Assembly (NCBI RefSeq): GCF_000021565.1
Contig: NC_012440.1
Location: 1,890,373-1,930,284, forward strand
Reading direction: 5' to 3'
DNA: 39,912 nucleotides
Origin: Persephonella marina EX-H1
GTDB taxonomy: Bacteria; Aquificota; Aquificia; Aquificales; Hydrogenothermaceae
Shown: piece by piece, positions 36,113 to 37,998 of the stretch
How positions within the stretch are numbered: position 1 is the first letter of the stretch
Layout: each line of letters opens with the position of its first letter
The notes under the pieces: generated by a model
The model's database searches: none
Seen by the model: the letters and a program-made list of their open reading frames with translations, nothing else
What the model was told of the DNA's origin: nothing
Position numbers and translations under genes: made by a program

Positions 36113-36128
36113 AAGATTTTATCAGATT
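36113..36128 (-). promoter_or_regulatory. Putative promoter element before the porin (16-mer shared with sat)
   Basis: The minus strand reads AATCTGATAAAATCTT, identical to 1076-1091 upstream of sat. It begins within the amtB stop codon and is 34 bases before the porin start. If it is a -10 region the porin has its own promoter. Confidence 0.35.
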
Positions 36129-37426
36129 TAAAGGTTGAATCCTCTTTCACCGTGGACAGCTTCATCAAGACCCATAGTTTCTGTTTCGTCATCAACCCTT
36201 CCACCTTTAGTGAGAACAGAAGCTATAAGGTAAACAACAGCTGTAGCAATAGCGGTATATATAATAGTAAACACTACAGACTCTATCTGAACCATTATCT
36301 GTGCTATTCTATCCCCATTATCCTTAAGAGGACTTCCATCCCATGCAAGCGATTGGAGAGCAAAGAATCCTGTTGCTATAGCACCCCATATTCCAGCAAG
36401 TCCGTGAATACCAAAAGCATCAAGGGAGTCATCATAACCAAGAGCCTTCTTGAGAACAAAAACTCCAAACCATCCAACTACACCAGCAACGAGACCTATT
36501 ATAATGGCACCTTTAGCATCAACAAAACCTGCAGCAGGTGTTATGGCAACAAGTCCAGCAATCGCACCTGAAGCAGCACCGAGAAGTGTAGGCTTTTTAG
36601 CCACTATCCATTCTGTTAATGTCCATGAGATAACACCCATAGCTGTTGCAACATTTGTAGTTAAAAGTGCAACACCTGCAACATCATTCGCTCCAAAAGC
36701 AGAACCAGCATTGAAACCAAACCATCCAAACCACAGGAGAGCAGCTCCAACTAATGTGAGGATCACCGAAGAAGGAAGGATAGCTGTTTTACCGTAATCC
36801 TTTCTCTTTCCAAGAAGAATAGCAAGAACAAGTCCTGCAACCCCTGCATTTATATGAACAACAGTTCCACCTGCGAAATCAAGAGCTCCAGCATCAAAAA
36901 GGAAACCACCACCCCAGACAACGTGGGCTATAGGAGCATAAACAGCAGTAACCCATAAAACAACAAATATAAGCCATGTTGAGAACTTCATCCTTTCAAT
37001 AGCAGCACCGGATATAAGGGCTACAGTTATTGCAGCAAATGTTCCCTGAAATGCTATAAAAACAAACTCCGGATATGTTCCGCTAAGATCTGTATAACTT
37101 ATACCTGAGAGGAGTATCTTACTGAGATCACCAACAAAACTGTAAATAGCTCCCTCTCCATCTGTAAACGCAAGTGAGTATCCCCATAAGACCCATACTA
37201 CAGTGGCTGTTGCATAGGCGAGGAAAACCATCATAACTGTGTTAAGTATATTTTTTGTTCTTGTCATTCCCCCGTAGAAAAGTGTAAGACCACCTATGGA
37301 CATAAGAACAACAAATGCTGTAGCAACTATCATCCATGCTGTGTCACCTGTATCAAGTTTCGCCTCTTCAGCGAAAGATACTGCAGGAATCAAACTGCTG
37401 AAAAGAGCCAATAATCTGATATTCAT
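36128..37426 (-). CDS. amtB: Ammonium transporter
   Basis: AmtB conducts ammonium or ammonia across the inner membrane. From ATG 37426 the protein has 432 residues: a signal peptide (LLALFSSLIPAVSFA) and then about 11 membrane helices. GGLTLFYGGMTRTKNILN near residue 45 is the family start. The conserved twin histidines appear in GGTVVHINAGVAGL and FGIHGLAGIWGAIATG. This start is chosen because AAAGGAGG lies upstream; a TTG at 37471 would overlap glnB. It lies 31 bases after glnB in the classic glnK-amtB order, where the PII protein blocks the channel when nitrogen is plentiful. Confidence 0.96.
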   Translation of the reverse strand: MNIRLLALFSSLIPAVSFAEEAKLDTGDTAWMIVATAFVVLMSIGGLTLFYGGMTRTKNILNTVMMVFLAYATATVVWVLWGYSLAFTDGEGAIYSFVGDLSKILLSGISYTDLSGTYPEFVFIAFQGTFAAITVALISGAAIERMKFSTWLIFVVLWVTAVYAPIAHVVWGGGFLFDAGALDFAGGTVVHINAGVAGLVLAILLGKRKDYGKTAILPSSVILTLVGAALLWFGWFGFNAGSAFGANDVAGVALLTTNVATAMGVISWTLTEWIVAKKPTLLGAASGAIAGLVAITPAAGFVDAKGAIIIGLVAGVVGWFGVFVLKKALGYDDSLDAFGIHGLAGIWGAIATGFFALQSLAWDGSPLKDNGDRIAQIMVQIESVVFTIIYTAIATAVVYLIASVLTKGGRVDDETETMGLDEAVHGERGFNL

Positions 37427-37457: not shown

Positions 37458-37814
<357 letters not shown>

Positions 37815-37839: not shown

Positions 37840-37855
37840 GGCAAAAAGCGTACCA
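37840..37855 (-). promoter_or_regulatory. Sigma-54 promoter of glnB-amtB
   Basis: The minus strand reads TGGTACGCTTTTTGCC. GG and GC are separated by exactly ten bases, as the -24/-12 rule requires, and it agrees well with the consensus TGGCACG-N4-TTGC. Transcription would begin near 37829, leaving a leader of about 33 bases before glnB. Confidence 0.85.
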
Positions 37856-37919
37856 AAAGGGGAGAGTTATTGATAGTTAATAGTGAGGGGATATTACAGG
37901 GTTTTTAAACAGTTTGTGA

Positions 37920-37936
37920 TGCACCAATTTTATGCA
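37920..37936 (-). promoter_or_regulatory. NtrC-like enhancer site 1
   Basis: The minus strand reads TGCATAAAATTGGTGCA, 17 bases, closely matching the NtrC consensus TGCACY-N4-TGGTGCA known from enterobacterial glnA. Its centre is about 100 bases upstream of the predicted start of transcription, the usual enhancer distance. Confidence 0.75.
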
Positions 37937-37951
37937 TTGTGAGAGGTGAGA

Positions 37952-37968
37952 TGAACATATAATGTGCA
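37952..37968 (-). promoter_or_regulatory. NtrC-like enhancer site 2 (weaker)
   Basis: The minus strand reads TGCACATTATATGTTCA. The left half-site TGCAC is perfect; the right half keeps four of seven bases of TGGTGCA. It is 32 bases from site 1, three helical turns, the spacing needed for cooperative binding on one face of the DNA. Confidence 0.55.
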
Positions 37969-37971
37969 TAA

Positions 37972-37998
37972 AATAAAAAAGCCCCCTTAAAGGGGGCT
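37972..37998 (-). terminator. Rho-independent terminator of groES-groEL
   Basis: On the minus strand AGCCCCC-TTTAA-GGGGGCT is followed by TTTTTATTTTA. It is a strong 7 to 9 bp GC-rich stem with a T run, 23 bases after the groEL stop. Confidence 0.9.

Follow-up and report, generated by a model that had tools for sequence, protein, structure and literature searches.

The stretch of DNA that we analysed (the window, 39,912 nucleotides) lies at the end of a 1.93-Mb chromosome and takes up its final 39.9 kb; the genome as a whole has 1.98 Mb on two contigs. Here glnB and amtB form a single minus-strand operon, which is preceded by a sigma-54 promoter, two putative enhancer sites and the end of the groEL transcription unit, as follows.

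36128-37426, minus strand: amtB, ammonium transporter, second gene of the operon (Pfam Ammonium_transp, 1.6e-113)
37458-37796, minus strand: glnB/glnK-type PII protein, first gene of the operon (Pfam P-II, 1.1e-34)
37840-37855, minus strand: sigma-54 (-24/-12) promoter TGGTACGCTTTTTGCC (pattern scan, 1 mismatch from consensus)
37920-37936, minus strand: putative proximal NtrC-type enhancer site TGCATAAAATTGGTGCA, centred at about -99, an exact match to TGCAY-N7-RTGCA
37952-37968, minus strand: putative distal NtrC-type enhancer site TGCACATTATATGTTCA, centred at about -131
37971-37998, minus strand: terminator-like hairpin and T-run of groEL, read from the sequence

A reading made from the sequence alone had proposed a sigma-54 promoter with GG-N10-GC spacing and two NtrC-like 17-mers about 100 and 131 bases upstream, set 32 bp apart as in enterobacterial glnA, and our scans reproduced this arrangement throughout. 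The GG (-24) and GC (-12) of TGGTACGCTTTTTGCC are separated by 10 bases, and this element is the sole match to TGGYACRNNNNTTGCW with at most one mismatch in the window; most relatives have a TGGCA-type promoter at the equivalent position before their glnB. The two enhancer sites, whose centres are numbered with the C of the promoter GC set at -12, are each one mismatch from TGCAC-N7-GTGCA and start 32 bp apart, the distal one having a weaker TTCA half that is found in relatives too. When we measured E. coli K-12 glnA on its own sequence, its NtrC sites TGCACCAACATGGTGCT and AGCACTATATTGGTGCA were also 32 bp apart.

To place this region in context, we compared it with 81 Aquificota genomes, with families labelled f1 to f5 (f1 is the family of the window and f2 is taken to be Aquificaceae), and read 107 glnB upstream regions. 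The distal enhancer site abuts the groEL hairpin and T-run, as it does in several close relatives. The glnD gene lies at C2:431-2932 on the minus strand, a few hundred bases into the chromosome. On a circular chromosome it would be a neighbour of groES-groEL and glnB-amtB. In G057, too, glnD is near glnB, at a distance of about 2.4 kb.

Candidate regulators encoded in the genome

Since control by NtrC and sigma-54 had been predicted for this operon, we searched the genome for the corresponding proteins. Both rpoN (Sigma54_DBD, E 3e-58) and glnD are present, together with nine sigma-54 activators. One of these (C2:751002-752381) is an intact response regulator encoded immediately behind a PAS-containing histidine kinase (C2:750028-750999), and a kinase gene adjoins the NtrC-type activator gene in all 30 orthologous loci examined. 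The genome thus holds rpoN and an NtrB/NtrC-type pair, where the lack of rpoN or of an NtrC-type activator would have refuted the predicted control.

Several comparisons bear on the family assignment of this pair. The best NCBIfam family of the activator is ntrC, for which it has the top score among the nine, at 462.8 bits against a curated cut-off of 558.6 (TIGR01818); an f4 ortholog reaches 493.9 bits against the same model, and the NtrB-type kinase is likewise under the NR(II) cut-off (129.9 vs 240). In alignment, the activator matches E. coli NtrC in the receiver phospho-Asp, the GAFTGA motif and the RNT..RK Fis-type helix, with the recognition-helix residues R442, N443, T444 and K448 invariant. 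A tree of 49 sequences groups it with proteobacterial NtrC and apart from AtoC, ZraR, GlrR and NtrX-like proteins with moderate support (92/96), while a smaller tree with few sequences placed it without resolution. The top structural relatives of its receiver and AAA+ domains are NtrC1 and NtrC4 of Aquifex aeolicus (1ny5, 4l4u, 3dzd), which also belong to the NtrC family but differ in their DNA-binding helices. A. aeolicus NtrC4 is reported to act at lpxC and not in nitrogen control.

It is conceivable that another sigma-54 activator reads the sites. Our first candidate was in fact the protein encoded at C2:465062-466432, which is Fis/NtrC-like and has a degenerate receiver, because its helix NQVKASQLLGINRATLRKKIQKYGL resembles the one in NtrC of alphaproteobacteria. 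In NCBIfam it, too, matches ntrC best, but with 384.4 bits it scores lower than the NtrC-type activator. On the other hand, just 7 of the 22 genomes of the family and none of the f4 genomes have close orthologs, whereas the sites are near-universal in both, and we rejected this protein as the reader on account of its scattered distribution. A sulfite-reductase-like gene, some 1.5 kb away from its gene, and cysH-like genes face each other, and the two sigma-54-like promoters between them contain none of these palindromes. We consider it very unlikely that this or another activator takes the place of the NtrC-type protein.

Two further observations concern sigma-54 in this genome. In the region of C2:465062-466432 and 470276-470515 (L017), the activator with the degenerate receiver has no Response_reg match, and the gap between the neighbouring sulfite/nitrite-reductase-like gene and the cysH-like set contains a divergent pair of sigma-54-like promoters (TGGCACATTCATTGCT and TGGCATGCCGTTTGCA), an arrangement suggestive of sigma-54-controlled sulfur assimilation. 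A different sigma-54 activator (C2:879975-881426, L024), which has no receiver, has a PilZ-like N-terminal part with a zinc-ribbon-like Cys cluster.

Placement, pairing and conservation of the sites

Single 17-mers carry little weight in themselves. The window contains 6 of them at a tolerance of up to two mismatches, against 5.7 expected, which is no enrichment, and exact TGCAY-N7-RTGCA palindromes are not enriched genome-wide (5 among the matches listed vs about 4.5 expected) in a pattern search that may miss weak sites at 1.69-1.93 Mb outside the window. We therefore excluded genome-wide counts of single sites from the evidence. A 17-mer alone is no rarer than chance; what goes beyond chance is where the sites are placed, how they are paired and how they are conserved.

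Four of the five exact palindromes among the matches listed fall at three sigma-54 promoter regions of nitrogen operons, namely glnB-amtB, glnB-glnA (glnB2-glnA) and a nitrite reductase/NarK-like operon (nirA/narK), and so include further copies near sigma-54 promoters, for which the sequence-only reading had proposed a genome scan. Two of them, at 1535198 and 1535229, are 31 bp apart before glnB2-glnA, which has the sigma-54 promoter TGGCAGGATATTTGCT and contains the only glutamine synthetase gene of the genome. Another, at 850762, has a partner with one mismatch 19 bp away and precedes two genes, the first ferredoxin-nitrite-reductase-like and the next for a NarK-like transporter, with TGGCACGCTTATTGCT as the sigma-54 promoter. 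The fifth (1629404) is inside a tRNA-synthetase-like coding sequence and was discarded as chance.

We then asked whether the sites are conserved upstream of glnB, accepting TGCAY-N7-RTGCA with at most one mismatch. By this measure, 39/41 f1 and 21/22 f4 promoters have a site, against 0/38 f2, 0/5 f3 and 0/1 f5 promoters, and shuffled sequences yield sites at 0-2.7%. The sole f4 promoter without a site is truncated by a contig end, and the two f1 promoters without sites belong to the two glnB genes of a single genome, G070. The consensus across Aquificota is TGCAY, seven A/T-rich bases and RTGCA. A second site is found 15-70 bp from the first in 46 of 60 glnB promoters, compared to 0.1% of shuffles. 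The spacings form three discrete clusters, with 14 cases at 18-23 bp, 34 at 30-33 bp and 3 at 44-47 bp, and no spacing falls in the gaps between them. Such spacing is what activators would require to bind on a single helix face.

These data also bear on the possibility that the palindromes are functionless chance matches in AT-rich DNA and that only the sigma-54 promoter is real. The chance-level frequency of single 17-mers in both window and genome is what such an account would expect, but it does not accommodate the placement of the sites at three nitrogen promoters, their conservation in 60/63 glnB promoters of two families or the excess of doublets over shuffled sequences, and we give it almost no credence.

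The distribution of the regulator genes follows that of the sites. An NtrC ortholog is present in 20/22 f1 and 15/15 f4 genomes, the f1 exceptions being G070 and G044, and is absent from all f2 and f3 genomes. GlnD above the curated cut-off is found in all f4 genomes and in f1 except G070 (in one f1 genome, G073, it is a fragment at a contig end), and in none of the f2 or f3 genomes. In G070, then, GlnD, NtrC and the sites have been lost together. The single discordant genome is G044, a 120-contig assembly in which sites and GlnD are present with no NtrB/NtrC match. With this exception, the sites come and go with the NtrC and GlnD genes among the genomes compared. Since this pattern reflects few independent evolutionary events, it is strong but does not amount to a large statistical sample. 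Together, the alignment of related genomes and the gene content agree with the predicted NtrC-sigma-54 nitrogen control.

The core promoter shows variation of its own in these two families. Of the glnB promoters that were scored, 17/40 in f1 have T or A, and 13/21 in f4 have T, where the -12 GC would have its C (TTGT, TTGA); the promoters altered in this way retain the GG at -24 (loci L029-L193). We read these as promoters with a relaxed -12 element.

Probable enhancer exchange in Aquificaceae and the proposed circuit

The f2 glnB promoters retain the sigma-54 element in 37 of 38 cases, and 31 of the 38 have TGT-N10-ACA (NifA-type) boxes in the form of a conserved GTAAACAATTTTAC repeat. In these upstream regions (e.g., L085, L160 and L171), a conserved GTAAACAATTTTACAATTTTGTAAACAATTTTACA is seen and the boxes are about 100-140 bp upstream, replacing the NtrC sites. 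The NifA-like protein AQ_218 of Aquifex aeolicus reportedly binds upstream of glnBA, an operon said to be under sigma-54 control (Studholme et al. 2000, reference 69 of PMC12316311), and the f2 boxes would fit such binding.

Since the A. aeolicus operon has its phylum, its glnB operon and a sigma-54 promoter at equal distance in common with the operon studied here, a NifA-type activator could also be proposed to drive glnB-amtB, and the boxes in most Aquificaceae glnB promoters lend this some appeal. However, TGT-N10-ACA boxes are found in 0/41 f1 and 0/21 f4 glnB promoters (0/62), that is, in none from the NtrC-bearing families, and nifA is the best family for 0/9 activators of the genome. 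The Aquificaceae also differ in that their genomes are without this NtrC ortholog and GlnD. A NifA-type activator at glnB-amtB is thus extremely improbable in our view.

In the remaining families, f3 and f5, glnB has no convincing sigma-54 promoter, and the genomes G067, G068, G076, G079, G080 and G059 have no match to the sigma-54 DNA-binding domain, which suggests loss of rpoN.

Our preferred reading, in which we have high confidence, is that the glnB-amtB regulatory region is under nitrogen control via an enteric-like Ntr cascade of NtrC and sigma-54. The DNA elements, the genes, the sites common to three nitrogen promoters and the conservation and co-occurrence across Aquificota are read directly from the genomes; from these we infer binding, phosphorylation, the nitrogen response and the start site. 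Under nitrogen limitation, GlnD would modify PII (GlnB), and the NtrB-type kinase would phosphorylate the NtrC-type activator. NtrC-P would bind at both TGCAY-N7-RTGCA sites, which lie some 99 and 131 bp upstream in helical phase with each other, form an AAA+ oligomer and loop to sigma-54 RNA polymerase at TGGTACG-N4-TTGCC, leading to promoter opening. The glnB2-glnA and ferredoxin-nitrite-reductase/NarK-like operons would be under the same code.

Many features of this predicted circuit resemble the enterobacterial NtrB/NtrC-sigma-54 system (glnAp2, glnK-amtB), including paired 17-bp sites of the TGCAC-N7-GTGCA type at 32-bp spacing, their position some 100-140 bp before a GG-N10-GC promoter and the presence of PII, AmtB, glnA, GlnD and NtrB/NtrC. 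Unlike in the enterobacterial system, the spacer is A/T-rich and the fifth base is C or T, NtrC and NtrB are below the curated family cut-offs, glnA is behind a second glnB, and some relatives have T or A for the C of the -12 GC. The sequence-only reading had held that the DNA code is almost unchanged from enteric bacteria. This is supported for the site consensus and for the four recognition-helix residues, which are identical; it does not extend to the whole phylum, because Aquificaceae use another box.

Since f4 lies outside the order that holds f1 and f2, the simplest reading, and in our view a probable one, is that an ancestral Ntr circuit was lost in Aquificaceae, where a NifA-type activator took over at the same promoter. 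On balance we also favour, with less assurance, a fuller version in which the entire Ntr cascade (GlnD, PII, NtrB/NtrC and paired TGCAC-N7-GTGCA enhancers) was ancestral to the class Aquificia. In Aquificaceae, GlnD and NtrBC would then have disappeared together, and the sigma-54 promoter of glnB, itself unchanged, would have been rewired to an activator of the NifA type. If true, this would be a swap of the trans-regulator with core promoter and target operon held constant and the enhancer alone changed.

In the open-access literature that we searched, we found no NtrC regulon described for Hydrogenothermaceae. Our findings would extend the DNA code of enteric NtrC, in which sites are paired and in helical phase, to a thermophilic phylum that branches deeply, and they predict a small nitrogen regulon there. 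Altogether, NtrC site and NifA-type box are cleanly exchanged at the same promoter in sister families, and GlnD and NtrBC are gained or lost along with them, which would make regulatory rewiring testable with thermostable parts.
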